Shown here piece by piece: positions 5,209 through 21,987 of a stretch of DNA of 25,488 bases (the stretch's first letter is position 1; every line of letters starts with the position of its first letter). Both the position numbers and the translations under genes were made by a program. The notes under the pieces are model-generated. The model ran no database searches. It worked only from the letters and a program-made list of their open reading frames with translations, and was not told where the DNA came from. The stretch comes from a virus: the IMG/VR virus record IMGVR_UViG_3300042564_004480, positions 1-25,488 of that record; one strand, given 5' to 3'.

Positions 5209-5361
5209 ATGAGTTGGTTTAAACGAGCACCACGAAAAAATGAACCCCTGAAACCCCACGTGTATCATCCTCCCCAAACAACCCCTGCTGCCGAGCGCAT
5301 GCTAGAAGAAGCCAAGGCAACTGGCCCAGACAAAAAGAACAAACGAGTCAAGAAACTGTAA
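5209..5361 (+). CDS. Small basic phage protein, unknown function
   Basis: A 50-residue frame from ATG 5209 to TAA 5361, with AAAGGA 8 nt upstream. The product starts MSWFKR, is rich in Lys, Arg and Pro, has no membrane segment, and ends in a cluster of basic residues. I have seen similar short proteins beginning MSWFKR in T4-like aquatic phages, but no function is known to me. It sits between the glycosyltransferase-like gene and pstS on the same strand and could be cotranscribed with either. Confidence 0.6.
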   Translation: MSWFKRAPRKNEPLKPHVYHPPQTTPAAERMLEEAKATGPDKKNKRVKKL

Positions 5362-5427: not shown

Positions 5428-6447
5428 ATGAAAAAAATCTTGGCCTTGTTGGCCGCAACACTGTATTTGTTGAGTCCGTCAGCAAATGCGCAAAACACCA
5501 TCACCGGGGCAGGCGCAACTTTCCCCTTTCCCATTTACAGCAAGTGGGCCGAAATCTACAGCGAAAAACATGACGTTCAGTTGAACTACCAAAGCATTGG
5601 CAGTTCAGGCGGCATCAGACAGATCCGAGCCAAGACTGTGATATTTGGTGCCACAGATGCACCCTTGTCAGGTGCAGATTTAGAAAAAGACGGCATGGTA
5701 CAGTTTCCTGCCATAATTGGCGGTACTGTGCCTATTGTAAATCTCCCAGGATTCAAACCTGGCGAACTACGAGTTACTGGTCCAGTACTGGCAGAAATTT
5801 TTCTAGGCGACATCACCAAATGGAATGATGCTCGAATTCTTGCTCTAAATCCCGGCAAGGCCTTGCCAGATCAACTCATTACCATTGTTCACCGTGCTGA
5901 CGGTTCAGGAACCACTTTCAACTGGACTGACTATCTCAGCACAGCAAGTCCAGCTTGGCTGGACCGTGTGGGCCGTGGCGCTGCTGTGAAATGGCCTGCG
6001 CCAACTTCTGTGGGCGGCAAGGGCAACGAAGGTGTTGCTGCCAATGTGGCACGTATCAAAGGCAGCATTGGTTATGTTGAATATGCGTATGTGAAGAAAA
6101 ACAAGCTGGTATTCATGCAGATGCAGAACCGCAATGGTCGCTGGGTATCACCAGATGACACAACCTTTGCTGCCGCGGCTGCTGGTGCAGATTGGTTCAG
6201 TGTGCCGGGCATGGGCCTGAGCATTGTGGATCAAAAGGGCGATGCAGTGTGGCCAGTGACCACTGCCAGTTTTATTCTCATGTACAAGGATCCCACAGAT
6301 CGTCGTCAAAGTGCCGAAGCACTGAAATTCTTCGATTGGGCATTTCGGAATGGGCAAAAGGCTGCACTGGACCTGGACTACGTGCCGTTGCCAGATGCCC
6401 TGACTCAACAGATTCGTGACCGTGTTTGGACACAGATCAAGAAATAA
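5428..6447 (+). CDS. pstS: Phosphate ABC transporter substrate-binding protein PstS
   Basis: A periplasmic phosphate-binding protein of 339 residues that would feed phosphate to the host PstCAB transporter. The first 21 residues are a Sec signal peptide ending ANA|Q. The mature part begins with the hallmark GAGATFPFPIY, followed by SIGSSGGI, GATDAPLSG and RADGSGTTFNWTDYLS, which contribute to the phosphate site. The ATG at 5428 is chosen because AAAGGA lies just upstream and it gives a proper signal peptide; an in-frame ATG at 5380 would precede the signal sequence. No pstA, pstB or pstC is present. PstS is a known auxiliary metabolic gene of marine T4-like cyanophages. It is followed by an outer-membrane barrel gene with its own promoter. 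Confidence 0.95.
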   Translation: MKKILALLAATLYLLSPSANAQNTITGAGATFPFPIYSKWAEIYSEKHDVQLNYQSIGSSGGIRQIRAKTVIFGATDAPLSGADLEKDGMVQFPAIIGGTVPIVNLPGFKPGELRVTGPVLAEIFLGDITKWNDARILALNPGKALPDQLITIVHRADGSGTTFNWTDYLSTASPAWLDRVGRGAAVKWPAPTSVGGKGNEGVAANVARIKGSIGYVEYAYVKKNKLVFMQMQNRNGRWVSPDDTTFAAAAAGADWFSVPGMGLSIVDQKGDAVWPVTTASFILMYKDPTDRRQSAEALKFFDWAFRNGQKAALDLDYVPLPDALTQQIRDRVWTQIKK

Positions 6448-6458
6448 ATTGTGTGATG

Positions 6459-6487
6459 TTGACAACGCTATATAAAACATCTATCAT
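6459..6487 (+). promoter_or_regulatory. Sigma70-type promoter of the outer-membrane barrel gene
   Basis: TTGACA (6459-6464), a 17-bp spacer and TATCAT (6482-6487, five of six matches). The -35 region reads TTGACAACGC, identical to the -35 region of the structured RNA promoter near 14632. An AAAGGAG site follows, 5 nt before the ATG at 6516. Confidence 0.65.
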
Positions 6488-6515
6488 GATAAAGTAAATT
6501 AACAAAGGAGAAATT

Positions 6516-7073
6516 ATGACATTTACTAAAGCAATCGCAGCCGCACTTTTGGTGGCAGCAACCAGTACAGCATTTGCCACAGGCTATGCTACCTATGAGT
6601 ACAGCGAAGAAGAAAACCGTGCAACCAGCGCTAACAACATTGCCAACGCAGTGGTAGTTGGTGTCAAAGCTGCCGAAGGTTGGGACTACAGTCTCAAAAC
6701 CAACACCAGCCAAACTGCACTGGGTTCAGGCACAATCACTTCAGGATTGGAAGTTCGTGCTAGAAAATCTTTTGGTGCATTCTACTTGGGTGGACGCCTG
6801 GGTGAACGTATTACCAGCAGCACACACTTCAGCACCTATGCTATTGACGCAGGTGTCAAGTTTCCATTGGCAGCTGGTTTCACTGGTGATGTAGGCGGTC
6901 GTTATCGCAATGCCATTGACAGCGATGCTAACAGCACTTACGAAACTCGTCGTGTGCATGCCACAGTGGGCTATGCATTGACCAAAAAAGACGCAGTGGC
7001 TGTGCGTTTTTCACGCAGCTACGGTGACGAAGAAAAAGATGCCTGGCGCTTGAGCTACACACGCAGTTTCTAA
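6516..7073 (+). CDS. Outer-membrane beta-barrel protein with signal peptide
   Basis: The 185-residue product has a clean Sec signal peptide (1-21, ending AFA). After it come alternating hydrophobic/polar strands, paired around turns such as the one between LEVRARKSF and FYLGGRLG, and a final strand ending in Arg-Ser-Phe. A C-terminal Phe after an amphipathic strand is the BAM-recognition signature of outer-membrane barrels. The mature size (about 164 residues) suits an eight-stranded barrel like OmpX or the lambda Lom type. It has its own promoter and strong ribosome-binding site, and a strong terminator downstream. Possible roles are superinfection exclusion, receptor masking or nutrient entry; none is shown. 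The family is not identified by name. Confidence 0.72.
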   Translation: MTFTKAIAAALLVAATSTAFATGYATYEYSEEENRATSANNIANAVVVGVKAAEGWDYSLKTNTSQTALGSGTITSGLEVRARKSFGAFYLGGRLGERITSSTHFSTYAIDAGVKFPLAAGFTGDVGGRYRNAIDSDANSTYETRRVHATVGYALTKKDAVAVRFSRSYGDEEKDAWRLSYTRSF

Positions 7074-7129
7074 ACTGACTTAAAACCGACCGCAACGATT
7101 GAGCGGCGCTGGAACTCGTAACCAGTACT

Positions 7130-7154
7130 AAAGGTCCCTAAGGGACCTTTTTTT
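7130..7154 (+). terminator. Rho-independent terminator after the barrel gene
   Basis: A 9-bp perfect stem AAAGGTCCC / GGGACCTTT with a 3-nt loop TAA, running into seven T residues (7148-7154). It ends the pstS-barrel transcript. The complementary strand has no T tract, so it acts in one direction only. Confidence 0.9.
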
Positions 7155-7187
7155 ACGACTGCTAAATATCACACAGGAGAAGCCACT

Positions 7188-7523
7188 ATGAAAAACACAG
7201 CGGTGGTATTGTTGTTTTATGTCTTTAGTCATGCTGCCTACTGCCAGGATCTGGTACCGGCATTCACAAACGCTGTGATGAAAGATGCCTCGTTGATTGC
7301 GTTAGGCCAGCAGGTATGGGACGGTCAGTGTCGACACTGCCACGGCAACAGTGCTTATCCTGGCAAGGCACCCAAACTCAAACCTTCCAGCTACCAACCT
7401 GACTTTGTGTACGATCGGGTGACCAATGGATTTCGCAAAATGCCAGCCTGGCGAGATATCTTCAATGAACAGCAGCGTGTGGGTGTTACAGTGTACATCA
7501 TGAGTGATACATTTTCACCCTAA
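7188..7523 (+). CDS. Secreted class I c-type cytochrome
   Basis: A 111-residue protein with an N-terminal signal peptide (about residues 1-19). It has one haem-binding CxxCH motif (C48, C51, H52) and a candidate axial Met in KMPAW (M85). Order and spacing fit a small monohaem class I cytochrome c folded in the periplasm after haem attachment by the host Ccm system. AGGAGA precedes the ATG, and a CTAAATA box (7162-7168) precedes that. It sits just after the terminator and before another small secreted protein. A phage-encoded c-type cytochrome is unusual; it could donate electrons to host oxidases or serve another redox role. The haem motif is clear; the role is not. Confidence 0.85.
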   Translation: MKNTAVVLLFYVFSHAAYCQDLVPAFTNAVMKDASLIALGQQVWDGQCRHCHGNSAYPGKAPKLKPSSYQPDFVYDRVTNGFRKMPAWRDIFNEQQRVGVTVYIMSDTFSP

Positions 7524-7550
7524 TAATAAATAATTGTTTAAGGAGCCATC

Positions 7551-7850
7551 ATGCGTAATACAACAATGGCGTTCCTATTCTGCCTAATCAGCTCTATAGC
7601 CCACGCCCAGGAAATCGTAGATTTACAAAAATCTTTGAAGTGTTCAGATGCACAAATAGTCATGAACTATTTTGTAGACACCCACAAAGAAACACCAGTC
7701 TGGGTTGGAAAATCAGTACACAACACTCATATAACATTGTTGGTCAACAAAGAGACTCGTTCATGGACCATGATAGAATATGATTCAAGATTGGCATGTG
7801 TGTTGGGTGCTGGTGAAGACCGGTCCAGTAGTAGTAAACCTGAAATTTAA
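7551..7850 (+). CDS. Small secreted protein, unknown function
   Basis: A 99-residue protein with a signal peptide ending AHA|Q (about residue 19) and AAGGAG before the ATG. The mature part has two Cys residues (one soon after the signal peptide, one near the C-terminus) that could form a disulfide in the periplasm. A WTMIE segment and the final Cys-containing strand resemble small hypothetical secreted proteins of aquatic phages, but I can name no family. It is 27 bp downstream of the cytochrome gene and is probably cotranscribed. A similarly sized secreted two-Cys protein is encoded at 19010-19339; I see no clear homology between them. Confidence 0.7.
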   Translation: MRNTTMAFLFCLISSIAHAQEIVDLQKSLKCSDAQIVMNYFVDTHKETPVWVGKSVHNTHITLLVNKETRSWTMIEYDSRLACVLGAGEDRSSSSKPEI

Positions 7851-9397: not shown

Positions 9398-10186
9398 ATG
9401 AGTGTTGCATTTGATTTAATTTCTGATTTACATGCAGAAACCTGGGCAGAGTTTGATTGGACCGGATTAGCCACCAGCCCATACTGTATTGTTGCAGGTG
9501 ACCTTGCTCGAGACCGAGAAGTTGTAGTAAACACCATGCGACATCTTGGATCGTGCTACCAGGCAGTTTTTTATATAGATGGCAACGACGAGCATCGATA
9601 TTACTATGACGACTTGAATGCCAGTTATGCTGATCTTGCTCGTAGATTAAAGAAAATACCCAATGTGGTATTCTTGCAAGACAATGTTGTAGTAGTAGAT
9701 GAGGTGGCTGTGATAGGTACCAACGGTTGGTGGACGTACCATCTTGACCCTTCAATAGATGCAGAACAAACTTCATTGTGGTTTCAAGATCAATGCAAAG
9801 TTAATGGTCAAGTTGCAAAAACTGTAGGGCGACTGGCCACAACAGATGCTAGTTATATGACTACCAGTATCAAACGACTTCAAACTCATGCGGATGTTAA
9901 AAAAATTGTTTGTGTCACACACACTGTACCCAACTCAAGTTTGATTGCACACGACATCGGTCTTGCAGACACATTGCGATTCAACACCATGGGCAACGGA
10001 TTTATGATGCGAGCATTGAGTGCAGATACAGAAAAAAAATTGCACACCTGGTGTTTTGGTCACTATCATGGGTCAGTGGATCAAATACGTCAAGGTGTGC
10101 GGTTTGTCAACAACTGTAGAGGCCGGGGAGATACCGAATGGCGTCAATACGTATATCATCCCTTGCGCATTGTTATAGACAATTAA
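9398..10186 (+). CDS. Calcineurin-like metallophosphoesterase
   Basis: A 262-residue cytoplasmic protein with the ordered metal-binding motifs of the superfamily: DLH (10-12), GDLAR (about 34-38), GNDEH in place of the usual GNHE, THTVP, and GHYHG near the C-terminus. The substrate could be a phosphodiester nucleotide, nucleic acid or phosphoprotein; the motifs do not decide. The His-to-Asp change in the GNH motif places D-E-H where N-H-E is common, so metal geometry may vary. The ATG at 9398 lacks a ribosome-binding site. TTTAAATA (9384-9391) lies just 6 nt upstream, where a transcript from a late-type box would be nearly leaderless. The 3' end overlaps the clpS stop by 4 bp (convergent). 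Confidence 0.8.
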   Translation: MSVAFDLISDLHAETWAEFDWTGLATSPYCIVAGDLARDREVVVNTMRHLGSCYQAVFYIDGNDEHRYYYDDLNASYADLARRLKKIPNVVFLQDNVVVVDEVAVIGTNGWWTYHLDPSIDAEQTSLWFQDQCKVNGQVAKTVGRLATTDASYMTTSIKRLQTHADVKKIVCVTHTVPNSSLIAHDIGLADTLRFNTMGNGFMMRALSADTEKKLHTWCFGHYHGSVDQIRQGVRFVNNCRGRGDTEWRQYVYHPLRIVIDN

Positions 10187-10494
10187 TTTACTGTTTCGGG
10201 TTCCAGTTTGATTTGCAGTGGATAACTCTGTGACCGTGCGCTGAGTGTGACTTCAATGCCTTTTTGTTCGGCAATCTCATAAGGCAACACTGCCACAGTG
10301 GCTTGGCCGGCTTGATGAATGTCCACAGTAATTTGTTCAGCAGTTTCAGCAGTGTAATTAAAGTATTCAATCAGACTGTCTACAACAAAATCCATTGTGG
10401 TTTGATTATCATTCAAATAGATAACCTTGAACATGGGCGGCTCTGTTACGGCCTCGGATGGTTTGATTCGTGTGCGGGTATCGCTTTGTGCCAT
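10183..10494 (-). CDS. clpS: ClpS-like protease adaptor
   Basis: ClpS delivers N-degron substrates to ClpAP and blocks other ClpA substrates. The 103-residue product has a disordered N-terminus, then PPMFKVIYLNDNQTTMDFV. This matches the ClpS start, including the Asn-Asp pair that binds the substrate amino group and the Met of the hydrophobic pocket. VHxxG is represented by DIHQAGQA, followed by YEIAEQKG and a C-terminal ARSQSYPLQ strand pair. The ATG at 10494 is chosen because AAGGA lies 6 nt upstream; an ATG at 10509 has no site. It is next to hsp20 and close to clpX, and no clpA or clpP gene is seen. It may redirect host Clp proteases; this is inference from context. Confidence 0.85.
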   Translation of the reverse strand: MAQSDTRTRIKPSEAVTEPPMFKVIYLNDNQTTMDFVVDSLIEYFNYTAETAEQITVDIHQAGQATVAVLPYEIAEQKGIEVTLSARSQSYPLQIKLEPETVN

Positions 10495-10520
10495 TTCTAT
10501 TCCTTGCATTGTTGCTCAAT

Positions 10521-10546
10521 CAGTGACAGCAAGATTGCTGTCACTG
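10521..10546 (-). repeat. Perfect 12-bp inverted repeat upstream of clpS
   Basis: CAGTGACAGCAA and its exact reverse complement are separated by 2 nt. The element lies between hsp20 and clpS and begins right at the predicted clpS transcription start (about 10547). It could be a 5'-terminal RNA hairpin or a repressor operator. No T tract follows, so it is not a standard terminator. Confidence 0.75.
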
Positions 10547-10553
10547 TATTTAC

Positions 10554-10582
10554 ATTATATTACTCTTTGTAGGTAATTGCAA
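10554..10582 (-). promoter_or_regulatory. Candidate promoter of clpS
   Basis: TTGCAA (10582-10577, four of six matches), a 17-bp spacer and a perfect TATAAT (10559-10554), reading leftward and overlapping the end of hsp20. A GTAAATA sequence follows immediately. The predicted start falls at the base of the 12-bp inverted repeat. Confidence 0.5.
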
Positions 10583-11015
10583 TGGTCTTTGGTTTGGCTT
10601 CTTCAGGCACTTCACGTTTTAGGTGAACGTTAAGAATACCAAGTTCAAGATGTGCATTGCTGATTTCCACATGGTCGGCCAATTGAAATTCCCTGCGGAA
10701 ACTTCGTTCGCTAATGCCTTTGTGCAAGTATTTTGTGGTAGCATCTTCGTTGTCCACAGCGTCACGATTGTGCTTGCCTTCAATTATCAAGAATTTTTTG
10801 TCCTTGGTAATACTCAGGTTGTCGTACCCAAAGCCGGCCACAGCCAAACTGATCATGTACTCATCATCATTGATTTGCACAATGTCATAAGGTGGATAGT
10901 TGTTGCTTTGTTGGGCATTCACACGCATGAGATCATCAAACAAGTTTTCGAAACCAATACCAAATTTGTGAATTGCGGGAATATCGAAACTGCGAAGGGT
11001 TAGAGTTTTTGTCAT
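10560..11015 (-). CDS. hsp20: Small heat-shock protein Hsp20 (IbpA-like)
   Basis: A 151-residue alpha-crystallin-domain holdase. The N-terminal arm contains FENLFDDLMR, like bacterial IbpA. The crystallin domain follows from YDIVQ (about 43) through LAVAGF, the FRREFQL strand and the GILNVHLKREVPEE end strand, and the C-terminal tail carries the IxI-type anchor KTIAI. Length and order are normal. AAAGGAG precedes the ATG. Hsp20 is a near-universal gene of T4-like cyanophages and pelagiphages, thought to assist folding or scaffold assembly. Here a strong promoter with an internal inverted repeat and a TATAAATA late-type box lies 65 bp upstream, so early and late expression are both possible. 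Confidence 0.95.
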   Translation of the reverse strand: MTKTLTLRSFDIPAIHKFGIGFENLFDDLMRVNAQQSNNYPPYDIVQINDDEYMISLAVAGFGYDNLSITKDKKFLIIEGKHNRDAVDNEDATTKYLHKGISERSFRREFQLADHVEISNAHLELGILNVHLKREVPEEAKPKTIAITYKE

Positions 11016-11051
11016 TTGTTTTCTCCTTTATTAAGCAAGATGACTTTTGAA

Positions 11052-11077
11052 ATGTAGCCCCACTATGGGCACTACAT
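11052..11077 (-). promoter_or_regulatory. 5'-terminal stem-loop in the hsp20 leader
   Basis: Reading leftward, ATGTAG and CTACAT pair (6 bp), then a small internal loop, then CCC/GGG around a 5-nt loop. The structure begins where transcription from the upstream promoter should start (about 11075). It does not cover the ribosome-binding site, so a stabilising role is more likely than a thermosensor. The pairing is seen; the role is inferred. Confidence 0.5.
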
Positions 11078-11080
11078 GTA

Positions 11081-11111
11081 TATTTATAACACAGATTTCA
11101 TTCTGTGTCAA
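11081..11111 (-). promoter_or_regulatory. hsp20 promoter: consensus -35, TATAAATA box and internal palindrome
   Basis: TTGACA (11111-11106), a 17-bp spacer and TATAAA (11088-11083) make a near-perfect sigma70 promoter. The -10 also forms TATAAATA (11088-11081), the exact T4 late promoter box. The spacer holds a perfect 7-bp inverted repeat, ACACAGA / TCTGTGT with a 6-nt centre (11089-11108), well placed as a repressor operator. Confidence 0.75.
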
Positions 11112-11125
11112 AATATTTGAAAAAA

Positions 11126-11350
11126 TTAATATGTTCGGGGCGGGAGTTGCTGGGCTTCTAGTTGTTTGCGCCAACGATTCTTGGCTGCACTGCGTTTGAG
11201 TTTGCGGGCTGTGGTGGGCTTGACGTAAAATTCACGTTCTCTAACATCGTTTAGTATGCCTGAGTTCTGCACTTTTTTCTTGAACTTGCGCAGGGCTTTT
11301 TCAATGTTGTTGTCCTGTACTATGACTGATCTAGCGTGTGGTTTGGTCAT
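11126..11350 (-). CDS. rpsU: Ribosomal protein bS21 homologue
   Basis: A 74-residue basic protein matching bS21: an N-terminal strand, then NNIEKALRKFKKKVQNSGI, REREFYVKPTTARK and a long Lys/Arg helix (KLKRSAAKNRWRK). bS21 sits near the anti-Shine-Dalgarno end of 16S rRNA in the 30S subunit and affects initiation. Phage copies are known from pelagiphages and huge phages and probably exchange into host ribosomes. The start overlaps the end of clpX by 20 bp, implying coupling; only a weak GGGA lies upstream of the ATG. The C-terminal tail is slightly longer than the shortest bacterial forms. Confidence 0.93.
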   Translation of the reverse strand: MTKPHARSVIVQDNNIEKALRKFKKKVQNSGILNDVREREFYVKPTTARKLKRSAAKNRWRKQLEAQQLPPRTY

Positions 11351-12554
11351 TTATTTCCCGAAGTGATTCAGGATTATTTACCAGGTCAGTGTTGATATTT
11401 AGGGTCTGAATTCCGCCTTTACGGTAGCGAGTCAAATCATACATGTGCGGCAACAGCACTCGTTCTAATTCACTGTGCAAGCCTCTAGCACCAGTTTTGT
11501 TGGCCATGGTTCGTTCTGCAATCAAATCCAAACTGTCAGCACTGAACTCTAAATTTACGTTGTCGCGTTTGAAAATCCATTGATACTGACTGACATAACT
11601 GTGCTTGATGTCTTGCAGGATGCGAATCAAGTCAGGTTTGGTGAGTTCACTCAATGCGACCCAACTGGGGAAACGTCCCACAAATTCTGGAATCATGCCA
11701 AAACGGATCAAATCTTCAGGTGTGGTTTGATCCAAGTGGTTGGTGTCCTTGTCCTCTGACACTCGGGCATTAAATCCAATGCTGGTGCCTTTAACACGAC
11801 TCTTTACAATTTTATCCAAGCCCACAAATGCCCCACCGGCAATGAATAGTATGTTGGCTGTGTCAATTTCAATGGTGTCACCTGCTGGATGCTTGCGACC
11901 ACCTTGTGGAGTGATTCTACACTTGGTACCTTCTACTAGTTTGAGCAAGGCCTGTTGTACCCCTTCACCCGACACATCTCGAGTGATACTGGCACTCTCG
12001 CTACGACGGCTGATTTTGTCAATTTCATCAATAAACACAATGCCGCGCTGTGTCTTGGCCACATCGCCACCGGCGGCTGCAAACAATCGATTGATCAGAC
12101 TCTCTACATCATCGCCCACATAACCTGCTTCGGTCAAACTGGTGGCATCGGCTATGACAAATGGCACATCCAAATAACGTGCCACAGTACGTGCCAACAA
12201 GGTTTTGCCTGATCCAGTTGGGCCAAGCATGAGTATATTGGCTTTTTCAATTTCCACATCCACATCAGCGTTGGCAATGCGTTTGTAGTGATTGGCAATG
12301 GCCACACTCAACACCATTTTGGCATGATCTTGTCCAATCACATACTGATCCAAATGGTCTTTGATGGCTCTGGGATCCAGTGTATCGTCTGTGATCTCTT
12401 TTGATTTTTCAGTCAATTCTTCTTTGAGCAAGGTTTGGCACAGGTCCACGCACTCATTGCAGATTGATACATCTGCTCCCACAATAAGTTTGGTCACTGA
12501 ATCTTTGTGTTTGCCGCAGAAACTACAGTTGTCTAACGTGTCTGGTGATTTCAT
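11331..12554 (-). CDS. clpX: ATP-dependent Clp protease ATP-binding subunit ClpX
   Basis: A full-length (407-residue) AAA+ unfoldase. It has an N-terminal zinc domain (C10, C13, C32, C35), Walker A GPTGSGKT (111-118), pore loop GYVG (144-147) and Walker B FIDEID (174-179). The RKH loop (220-222) and sensor II GARG (355-358) are present. It keeps an IGF tripeptide (259-261), the loop that docks on ClpP, so it could work with host ClpP. No clpP is present in the window. The start lies 2 nt after the upstream stop with no ribosome-binding site; TTTAAATA overlaps the start codon. It is cotranscribed with the membrane protein gene upstream and overlaps rpsU downstream. Likely role: redirecting host proteolysis or remodelling phage complexes. 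Confidence 0.96.
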
Positions 12555-19678: not shown

Positions 19679-19697
19679 AAAAAAGTACTACTTTTTA
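19679..19697 (-). terminator. Weak AT-rich hairpin with T tract after the virion-like operon
   Basis: Reading leftward, AAAAAGTA-G-TACTTTTT pairs directly after the stop codon and ends in a run of six T. It is short and AT-only apart from two G-C pairs, so termination would be inefficient. It lies just before promoter copy B. Confidence 0.35.
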
Positions 19698-20552
19698 GGT
19701 TTGTACTTGTGCCCGTGCTTGTGCAGGTGTGTATGTGCTGTCACTCAGTGTGGCCTGTGGAGGTACAGCATTGGGCAGGCTGGGTACTGCATTGTCAATT
19801 TTCAAGTTCACTGCATTGATGCCTGCGGTGTTGCGTCCTTCACGTAGCGCACCCACCATGGCCTGCCCATATTGGTTGGCAGTGTTGGCAATGGCTTCTA
19901 AAAATTCAGCAGCCATGCCTTGTTGTGTTTCTTGACCATAACCGGCTAAGGCAGGAATAAAAGCCGTGATAGGCAATTGTGCGCCGGCTGTGAGTGTGGC
20001 ATAGTCAATCGAAGCCAAGGCTTGAAATGTGTCTTCATTGGCACTGTGTGTGGTCATCTCAGTCCAGACAGTGTTCAGTGTGGCGGTGGTATTGGCACCC
20101 ATGGCTGCGATGGCTGTGCCAATGGCTGCATCAGCGGCCGGGATCAATGCAGCCAATGCAGCATTGTATGTGAGATACACACCTGCGGCCGGACCACTTG
20201 GTATGGTTATAGTAGGAGGAATACCATATCCACTGGTGACAACTTCAACCATTTGAGAGTATATGGTGTTGAGTGCGCTAAGATTTCCAGCGGTAACTTG
20301 TGCAGAGATGGTACTAGTGACTGTGGTCAAATAATCATTATAAGGAATGCCGGCCGCTGATCCAAAAAAGTCTGTGGTCAAGAACGTGCCATTGGGTCCA
20401 GATCCTTTGGCCAATTGAGTGAGATAGTATGTGGGCACCGCATCAGGTACAGGTGTAGACGAAGGTGCGTTGATCAAATCAAGACCCTTGAGTGTGCCTA
20501 GTTTTTTTGTGTAGGCTGCTGTTTCGGCTGCTGTTTGTGTGAGTGTGGTCAT
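19695..20552 (-). CDS. Ala/Thr-rich probable virion protein
   Basis: A 285-residue protein rich in Ala, Thr, Gly and Pro, with almost no charge in the centre and no signal peptide or membrane segment. Helical stretches (AALAALIPAADAAIGTAIAAMG) alternate with Pro/Thr-rich linkers; the C-terminus is Pro/Gln-rich. I do not recognise a family. Its start overlaps the upstream gene stop (ATGA), and that gene follows a PAAR gene, so a structural role in the tail tip or baseplate is a reasonable inference. Composition resembles the larger neighbour at 20549-21703, suggesting they work together. Confidence 0.65.
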   Translation of the reverse strand: MTTLTQTAAETAAYTKKLGTLKGLDLINAPSSTPVPDAVPTYYLTQLAKGSGPNGTFLTTDFFGSAAGIPYNDYLTTVTSTISAQVTAGNLSALNTIYSQMVEVVTSGYGIPPTITIPSGPAAGVYLTYNAALAALIPAADAAIGTAIAAMGANTTATLNTVWTEMTTHSANEDTFQALASIDYATLTAGAQLPITAFIPALAGYGQETQQGMAAEFLEAIANTANQYGQAMVGALREGRNTAGINAVNLKIDNAVPSLPNAVPPQATLSDSTYTPAQARAQVQT

Positions 20553-21703
20553 TGCAGTATTGTCGCCAGTTGTTGTGTGGTGGTGCCAGTTATGCCCTTG
20601 ACCTGTTGATAGGCAATTTGTAGTGCGCGATTGGCCTGTGCCTGTGCTGATGGCACAATCTTGGCCAAGTCGTCACAGCCCTTGGGACTCACTGTGCCAG
20701 AATTTAATATGGGCTCAATCGCACTGTTGACACTGCCATCAGTGTTGTAGATCAACACAGGACCATTAGGGGTGGGCAACGTCAAACTGCTAAAACTGGT
20801 AGGGTATAATTTTACGGGATTCAGCAGATCTGCCATGGTGGCAATGTTGGGAGTGGTGCAATCCAAAATTGACAGAACTTCGGCCAAGCAATCACCAGTA
20901 ACATTAACCAATGCTGGATATGCACGTTTTTGTAAAGTATCAAATTGATTTTGTGTAAGTCCATTCTGATTGTACAGGCTTTGCACATTGTCATTCACAA
21001 GATCTGAAATATCTTGGTCAGTTAACCCTTCAGATTTTAATGCGGTAGTTACGCAAGGAGTAGACCCATTCAACATGTTGCCACATTCGGCTAAATTTTG
21101 CAGCAATCCCGCAGGGGTGCCAATACGTTCTAATCTAGTGAACTTGATTGCACAACCAATGTTGGCTAGATCTGCACCGAATGCCGGTCCGGCCAAGTTG
21201 ACTTTGTAGATGTCTCCAGAAATGGTGTCGTCCATGTTGGTAAATGTGGGACCAAGATAATCATCACTGTTGACGTTGACTGCACTGTTGATAATACCAT
21301 TGGTGAGACTGATATAGCCTTGTGCTGCGCCGAATGCCTGTGCAAATTTACCAAAGTCTCCTCCACCAAGATAAGTGCTGGCTGCTGTGGTTATGCTGGT
21401 GGCATAACCTGCATTGCCCACAGTCCATGACACATTGCTGGGCACACTGTCTCCCAAAGCCGGACAGTAGTTGCCACTCACACTGGCACCAATGGTTTTG
21501 AGATTAGCTATAGTGCCAGCAGTGATACCAAGATTTGCATTGCTGGTGGCCAACCCAATGGTCAGCAACAAATTGGCCACAGGTACCAATGCATTGTAAG
21601 CAGCAATATTGTTGGCCAAAGCAGTGTTGGCTGTGATGGCATTGCCGGCATACATGCCCACACCAGCCCACAGTTGCAGTGGTGTTGCCACTGATTGTGT
21701 CAT
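20549..21703 (-). CDS. Probable virion protein next to PAAR, unknown function
   Basis: A 384-residue protein rich in Ala, Asn, Thr and Gly with seven Cys residues, no signal peptide and no clear membrane segment. The start at 21703 is chosen because ATG overlaps the PAAR stop by one base (TAATG) with GAGG 8 nt upstream; a longer frame to 21751 runs through the PAAR gene. Segments such as NGLTQNQFDTLQKRAYPALVN suggest folded helical parts. Gene order (PAAR, this protein, an Ala/Thr-rich partner) suggests a spike- or baseplate-associated virion component. No known family assigned. Confidence 0.65.
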   Translation of the reverse strand: MTQSVATPLQLWAGVGMYAGNAITANTALANNIAAYNALVPVANLLLTIGLATSNANLGITAGTIANLKTIGASVSGNYCPALGDSVPSNVSWTVGNAGYATSITTAASTYLGGGDFGKFAQAFGAAQGYISLTNGIINSAVNVNSDDYLGPTFTNMDDTISGDIYKVNLAGPAFGADLANIGCAIKFTRLERIGTPAGLLQNLAECGNMLNGSTPCVTTALKSEGLTDQDISDLVNDNVQSLYNQNGLTQNQFDTLQKRAYPALVNVTGDCLAEVLSILDCTTPNIATMADLLNPVKLYPTSFSSLTLPTPNGPVLIYNTDGSVNSAIEPILNSGTVSPKGCDDLAKIVPSAQAQANRALQIAYQQVKGITGTTTQQLATILQ

Positions 21704-21987
21704 TATGCTGCCCTCACTGAAGCAGATCCTGCTGTGCGAGGATGTCCGCAAGTGTCTGCATCACCATCACGTATCACAGGACGTCCGCCAGCACGTACTG
21801 TGCCTGATCCACCTGAGGTCACTGCCGAACAGTGTATACCGCAACCGGGTGATCCACAACAAGGATGCGGTGTAACCCCAATACCAGGTATAACAATGGG
21901 ACGGCCGTTTACTCGTACAGAAGCCACACCTGAAGTGTTTATTCCTCCTGACGTGTTTGGATCACCTTGTCGTTGTACTGCTGGCAT
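21703..21987 (-). CDS. PAAR-domain protein (tail spike tip)
   Basis: A 94-residue PAAR-repeat protein that should cap the central spike of the contractile tail and help pierce the host outer membrane. It has the expected Gly-rich repeat layout: an N-terminal GDPNTSGG, a SVRVNGRPIV hairpin, a central CCGSPGCGIHC segment and a C-terminal GRPVIRDGDADTCGHP. The Cys/His residues fit a metal site at the tip. T4 gp5.4 is the comparable phage protein. Length is typical. A weak GGGA precedes the ATG, which follows the upstream stop by one base. Confidence 0.88.
   Translation of the reverse strand: MPAVQRQGDPNTSGGINTSGVASVRVNGRPIVIPGIGVTPHPCCGSPGCGIHCSAVTSGGSGTVRAGGRPVIRDGDADTCGHPRTAGSASVRAA

Follow-up and report, generated by a model that had tools for sequence, protein, structure and literature searches.

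A PstS gene followed by exchangeable outer-membrane protein genes in phages, probably T4-like and of freshwater Burkholderiales

Phage-encoded pstS is a textbook auxiliary metabolic gene. Copies are found in many records of Synechococcus and Prochlorococcus phages, in agreement with the first-pass annotation of the present locus, which had listed PstS as a known phage auxiliary gene. Viral porins are also known, in one case beside a nutrient transporter: Gazitua et al. 2020 (PMC8115048) described marine viral glnK-amtB-ompL contigs, in which a porin gene lies directly downstream of a nutrient-transport gene. In our literature search, no paper was found on an outer-membrane protein or porin gene beside phage pstS.

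Here, we describe such an arrangement in a 25.5-kb IMG/VR fragment, IMGVR_UViG_3300042564_004480, the whole of which (25,488 nucleotides) is referred to as the window. Four consecutive open reading frames (5428-7850) encode PstS, a small outer-membrane barrel, a c-type cytochrome, and a small secreted protein. Table 1 lists the features of this region.

Table 1. Features of the PstS region, in window coordinates
Feature	Position	Strand	Evidence or remark
Conserved 50-aa protein	5209..5361	+	Precedes PstS in the window's lineage
PstS, periplasmic phosphate-binding protein, 339 aa	5428..6447	+	NCBIfam, PHROG, and solved-structure matches
Sigma70-type promoter, TTGACA-17-TATCAT, between PstS and barrel	6459..6487	+	11 of 12 consensus matches
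Outer-membrane beta-barrel, 185 aa, predicted 10 strands, occupant of the exchangeable slot	6516..7073	+	Alignment, AlphaFold2 model, structure matches
Terminator-like hairpin, AAAGGTCCC-TAA-GGGACCTTT followed by a T-run, at the end of the PstS-barrel module	7130..7154	+	Fold -15.2 kcal/mol, z -3.0
Secreted monohaem c-type cytochrome, 111 aa, CRHCH, candidate ligand Met85	7188..7523	+	PF13442
Small secreted protein, 99 aa, helix and four strands, invariant Cys31 and Cys83	7551..7850	+	PHROG 25396, E 0.0012

Phage origin of the window and its two modules

The four genes lie between UV endonuclease-like, amidinotransferase-like, UDP-glucose dehydrogenase, and 50-aa protein genes on one side and ClpS-like, Hsp20, S21, and ClpX genes on the other. 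Since this order recurs, complete or partial, in the PstS neighborhood of viral contigs that come from several independent metagenomes, and since one syntenic 212.6-kb contig encodes a T4 gp23-type capsid protein (E 2e-97), the contig is not a host/phage chimera at the four-gene block, and the phage origin first assigned to this stretch stands. All four genes showed dN/dS values of 0.06-0.23 against their relatives, indicating that they are maintained under purifying selection. Reading by eye found a signal-peptide-like leader at the start of each of the four open reading frames, in agreement with the earlier prediction that all four products are targeted to the envelope.

Two further regions of the window were observed. 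The ClpS-like, Hsp20, ribosomal protein S21, and full ClpX (407 aa) genes form a protein-quality block on the minus strand (10183-12554), and the best matches of this ClpX in the phage collection were 49-57% identical. Positions 19695-21751 encode two low-complexity alanine/threonine-rich proteins with no PHROG match.

The window PstS is a full-length family member, scoring 398.6 bits against the NCBIfam PstS equivalog NF008171 (E 2e-119; cut-off 339) and 365 bits against TIGR00975 (cut-off 205). It also matched PHROG 5385 (E 3.5e-64) and aligned to the solved PstS structure 8ods, with a solved-PstS match at E 1e-106. Among 12 phage copies, the ligand-loop motifs GATFP and RADGSGT are invariant and GSSGG is nearly so, and phosphate binding is predicted. 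The nearest bacterial copies are mostly from Comamonadaceae/Burkholderiales, with identity up to about 76%; because of this closeness, a freshwater Burkholderiales host is likely, as judged from this one gene. We regard the window as a piece of a freshwater phage from a lake, probably T4-like, that probably infects Burkholderiales. In the bacterial genomes read, pstS is followed by pstC-like and pstA-like genes, with no porin gene next to it.

The four genes had first been described as one block, a description that did not hold. A four-gene operon was rejected because the hairpin and T-run, which are absent from the consensus-scan list, separate the barrel gene from the cytochrome gene, and because in relatives some 4-6 kb with other genes lies at this point. 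The inserted genes vary in set and include amidotransferase-like, Pol III alpha-like, phosphoesterase, and glycosyltransferase genes. In one contig of another lineage (IMGVR_UViG_3300027782_003512), the PstS-barrel pair (L017) and the cytochrome-small protein pair (L007) lie at separate places. The stretch is, then, composed of two modules. A 558-aa protein is encoded between the modules in two relatives (L003:5810-7486 and L071:5810-7486), and that of L003 matches the NTPase and finger domains of DNA polymerase III alpha.

Exchange of outer-membrane proteins after PstS

An outer-membrane protein gene directly follows PstS in 16 contigs, the window included, and belongs to one of three unrelated types. 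These are the small barrel in seven (window, L010, L016, L017, L018, L055, and L071), Porin_4 (PF13609) in seven (L080 and L082, E 3.5e-43 and 2.7e-39, with the relatives L081, L174, L175, L177, and L181), and Porin_O_P (PF07396) in two (L003 and L004, E 1.4e-39 and 1.8e-38). When the count was started from the porins, which avoids selection by PstS, PstS was found directly upstream in both Porin_O_P loci and in 7 of the 9 viral Porin_4 loci that include upstream sequence. The PstS proteins of the window and L003 are 95% identical and their outer-membrane proteins are unrelated; the window and L010 share barrels of 92% identity, with PstS at 67%. The PstS tree requires at least two changes of barrel label, and the type of outer-membrane protein does not track PstS ancestry. 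A homology between the barrel and Porin_4 was rejected, since hhalign aligned the signal peptide/leader only.

The slot genes are thus exchanged independently of PstS ancestry, behind a common start region and under constraint. Among 160 gene starts from seven relatives, those closest to the barrel start (ribosome-binding site and first 15 bases) belonged to slot genes, with each of the three types represented; the weakest of them was tied with one PstS start. The slot proteins share an MKFTK start, and beyond the ribosome-binding site and first codons the three types have little in common. Between PstS and the slot gene, a TTGAC-(15-17)-TATAAT-like promoter was recognized by eye in about 11 of 13 aligned loci, covering all three types; it is absent in L175 and doubtful in L082. 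We propose that whole outer-membrane proteins would be exchanged by recombination, with the upstream part (PstS, promoter, ribosome-binding site, and first codons) conserved and the downstream genes varying.

An unlikely alternative is that envelope genes simply pile up where insertion is tolerated, as unrelated single-gene cargo with no common function. Such a hot spot would fit the region from PstS to the small-protein gene, which varies by kilobases among relatives, and the occurrence of the cytochrome and small protein in other phages without an adjacent PstS-barrel pair. It would also fit the lack of a general association of PstS with nearby porin-like genes: in 80 loci retrieved through PstS and scanned with a crude heuristic, porin-like open reading frames numbered 6/289 within 3 kb and 7/425 farther away (Fisher p 0.44), so a general PstS-porin linkage was rejected. 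Because no enrichment was seen in these loci, the pairing appears to be confined to certain lineages. In the window's lineage, however, only outer-membrane proteins occupy the first slot, at a gap of about 60-72 bp from PstS and with the common start region, which argues against indiscriminate insertion. So does the interchange of the barrel and Porin_4 in three different gene surroundings, among them after an NrdB-type gene (barrel in L021, L022, L024, L052, and L078; Porin_4 in L178) and upstream of a 92-aa gene (barrel in L027-L051; PstS-Porin_4 in L175).

The small barrel of the window showed no match in Pfam, PHROGs, or NCBIfam. An AlphaFold2 model built from an alignment of 30 viral relatives (pLDDT 88.8) shows a leader helix followed by ten beta-strands, and all 30 relatives keep the C-terminal Phe. 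The best VIA-align match was a designed 10-stranded transmembrane barrel (Z 18.6, 139 residues, rmsd 2.0), followed by OpcA (18.4), a Legionella porin (17.8), and omptins; Foldseek against the PDB likewise identified the model as an outer-membrane barrel. With its leader, amphipathic strands, C-terminal aromatic residue, and modelled fold, the protein is an outer-membrane beta-barrel. The first-pass annotation had called a phage-encoded barrel with a C-terminal Phe unusual; the barrel and its Phe are real, and such barrels are less rare than supposed, since 54 viral contigs carry this one and many phage outer-membrane proteins are found in BFVD. A bacterial origin was sought in a scan of genome contigs, which gave no match, and in 301 genomes of one bacterial family, where a single, marginal hit was obtained (E 7e-4). 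Other PstS phages encode a second family of secreted proteins, 177-181 aa long with a terminal F and probably likewise small barrels (L096:7277-7813, L128:12230-12763, and L138:8354-8896); one of them gave a weak match to the second half of Porin_4 (E 4e-4).

The structural matches raise the question of whether the barrel is a channel at all. We consider it very unlikely that it is a structural, adhesive, or protease-like protein of the OpcA/omptin type: the best matches do include OpcA and omptins (Z 14.6-18.4), but the window protein has no Pfam match although its fold aligns with omptins, its mature chain of ~163 residues compares with 225-297 residues in the OpcA/omptin crystal structures, and its extracellular loops are predicted to span only about 3-8 residues. 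Taking the hydrophobic face of the alternating strands as outward, the predicted inward face carries 13 conserved Lys/Arg versus 7 Asp/Glu. The seven acidic lumen residues could neutralize the basic ones, which would count against anion supply through this barrel. Ten-stranded barrels of known structure (OpcA, OmpT) are not known to be open pores, and the main caution is that barrels this narrow may be closed. In a porin classification from 2016, a 10-stranded class is listed without any member (PMC4849052).

The large porins give further signs of anion passage. Their closest solved relatives are OprP/OprO and Omp32. All 10 phage Porin_4 proteins examined carry Arg at the positions aligned with R38, R75, and R133 of Omp32, which we take to be its constriction arginines, placing them with this porin; the L080 protein also matches E58 and D105. 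The L003 and L004 porins belong to PF07396 (136.9 bits, cut-off 20.9). Compared with the phosphate-binding-site residues of OprP as given in PMC5877670, the L003 porin keeps R59, R60, D94, S124, S125, R133, R226, and R242; unlike in OprP, K121 is replaced by Glu and K126 by Asn, and the ladder positions 218, 220, and 222 are not Arg. The phosphate-selective arginine ladder and K121 are, therefore, mostly absent, and phosphate selectivity of this OprP-family porin is unsupported because K121 and three ladder arginines are lost. Taken together, the residues suggest with moderate confidence that the slot proteins pass anions. Porin_O_P was not found in 151 genomes of the bacterial family scanned for the barrel, in a search without a positive control.

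We tentatively favor the interpretation that PstS and its outer-membrane channel form a modular anion (phosphate) supply cassette in phages that are probably T4-like and probably infect freshwater Burkholderiales. The outer-membrane barrel would admit anions into the periplasm, where PstS would capture phosphate and pass it to the host PstCAB, which is not encoded in the cassette. Phosphate is the obvious solute because PstS lies beside the slot proteins; we infer it as the relevant solute, together with an open state of the barrel and the time of expression. The change in host phosphate uptake that was first suggested for this locus is supported as a probable effect on phosphate supply. A bolder version, in which the channel is swapped like a cartridge between a minimal 10-stranded basic mini-porin and two large porin classes and a second cassette adds a cytochrome through which infected cells can use a periplasmic quinoprotein dehydrogenase, seems improbable to us.

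The "surface access" suggested in the first-pass annotation, as a receptor or exclusion function, is a rival reading. The slot proteins would alter the outer-membrane profile of the host against competing phages, in superinfection exclusion, receptor replacement, or a receptor arms race, and adjacency to PstS would be incidental. Lambdoid prophages that replace porins alter phage sensitivity (PA-2 Lc, NmpC), and the exchange of unrelated barrels at one site fits receptor-type switching; moreover, PstS is not adjacent to the small barrel in most of the contigs that carry it. However, receptor-type diversification is hard to see in a barrel with short predicted loops, 55-94% identity among relatives, an invariant GDEEKD loop, and low dN/dS, and the direct succession of PstS and porin in most Porin_4 and both Porin_O_P loci argues against incidental adjacency. 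We therefore regard this rival as rather unlikely and retain the phosphate supply reading.

Cytochrome and small secreted protein

The window cytochrome matched the Pfam family Cytochrome_CBB3 (PF13442; E 2e-13, 50.7 bits, cut-off 27). The CRHCH motif and the candidate axial Met85 are invariant, and the core is nearly so. By its CXXCH motif, downstream Met, and export signal, the protein is a class I c-type cytochrome, with haem attachment predicted. A secreted haem protein is as unusual in phages as was first supposed, since it was found in only 8 viral contigs and had no match in a collection of 50,697 phage records. The small-protein gene lies directly downstream in 6 of the 8 viral cytochrome loci, with one divergent copy at 35%. 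We propose that the two genes would constitute a second, mobile module.

The model of the small protein (pLDDT 79, core above 90) combines a single helix with four strands. No PDB fold matched it with E <1, and the protein was found neither in the 50,697 phage records nor in 151 bacterial genomes, the latter searched without a positive control. In two relatives (L004:10001-10660 and L005:10001-10336), the cytochrome and small-protein genes have a near-identical leader of the AFLFCLISSIANAQ type. Leaders may act as recombination points for secreted cargo. Upstream of the cytochrome, one of these contigs (L005:6075-9920) encodes secreted repeat-rich proteins, of which one appeared curli-like and one FecR-like by eye.

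Close bacterial relatives of the cytochrome are few: one in 301 genomes of one family and a second from a class-level sample of 321 genomes. Both (G096 and G397; 55-59% identity) adjoin a gene for a GSDH-family (PQQ glucose/sorbosone) dehydrogenase, and a weaker relative (L263) adjoins a PQQ dehydrogenase. A bacterial contig (L281:227-3729) carries genes for a GSDH-family dehydrogenase, a cytochrome relative, a TMEM220 membrane protein, and a dehydroquinate-synthase-like protein in a row. Since no GSDH-family dehydrogenase (PF07995) was detected in 11 viral records, mostly fragments, the phage cytochrome would need a host enzyme as its partner. From guilt by association in these few cases, we infer a cytochrome-dehydrogenase partnership; the cytochrome would most likely take electrons from a host periplasmic dehydrogenase and feed a host oxidase.

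Significance and comparison with known systems

A binding protein is useless if the outer membrane limits phosphate entry. If PstS is indeed coupled to exchangeable outer-membrane proteins that probably pass anions, some phages would deal with both barriers. The natural swaps provide matched variants for asking whether a 10-stranded barrel can be a channel, and the phage cytochrome family offers a case in which to test whether a virus alters periplasmic electron flow. Among the 50,697 records of the phage collection, the small barrel and Porin_O_P had no match and Porin_4 had one weak match; surveys based on cultured phages would, therefore, miss the slot proteins.

The phage cytochrome resembles the CBB3/c6-type cytochromes encoded beside PQQ dehydrogenases, which include the bacterial proteins 55-59% identical to it. 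Unlike those, it has no adjoining dehydrogenase and is usually paired with a small secreted protein.

The window PstS is, like that of T4-like cyanophages, a phage-encoded periplasmic phosphate-binding protein. The cyanophage copies listed are only 34-38% identical to it; unlike them, it has an outer-membrane protein gene next to it and is nearest to Comamonadaceae/Burkholderiales copies. Omp32, the anion-selective porin of Comamonas/Delftia acidovorans (PDB 1e54), is matched by phage Porin_4 at E 2.4e-13; it corresponds not to the window's own protein but to that filling the same slot in relatives. The L003 and L004 porins belong to the same family as OprP and OprO, the phosphate and pyrophosphate porins of Pseudomonas (2o4v, 4rjw).

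The marine glnK-amtB-ompL contigs share with the present locus a porin gene directly 3' of a nutrient-transport gene. Those contigs concern nitrogen, are derived from Bacteroidetes, and contain three genes inherited together from the host. In contrast, the present locus concerns phosphate; its PstS is of the Burkholderiales type, and a single site takes up several alternative outer-membrane proteins.
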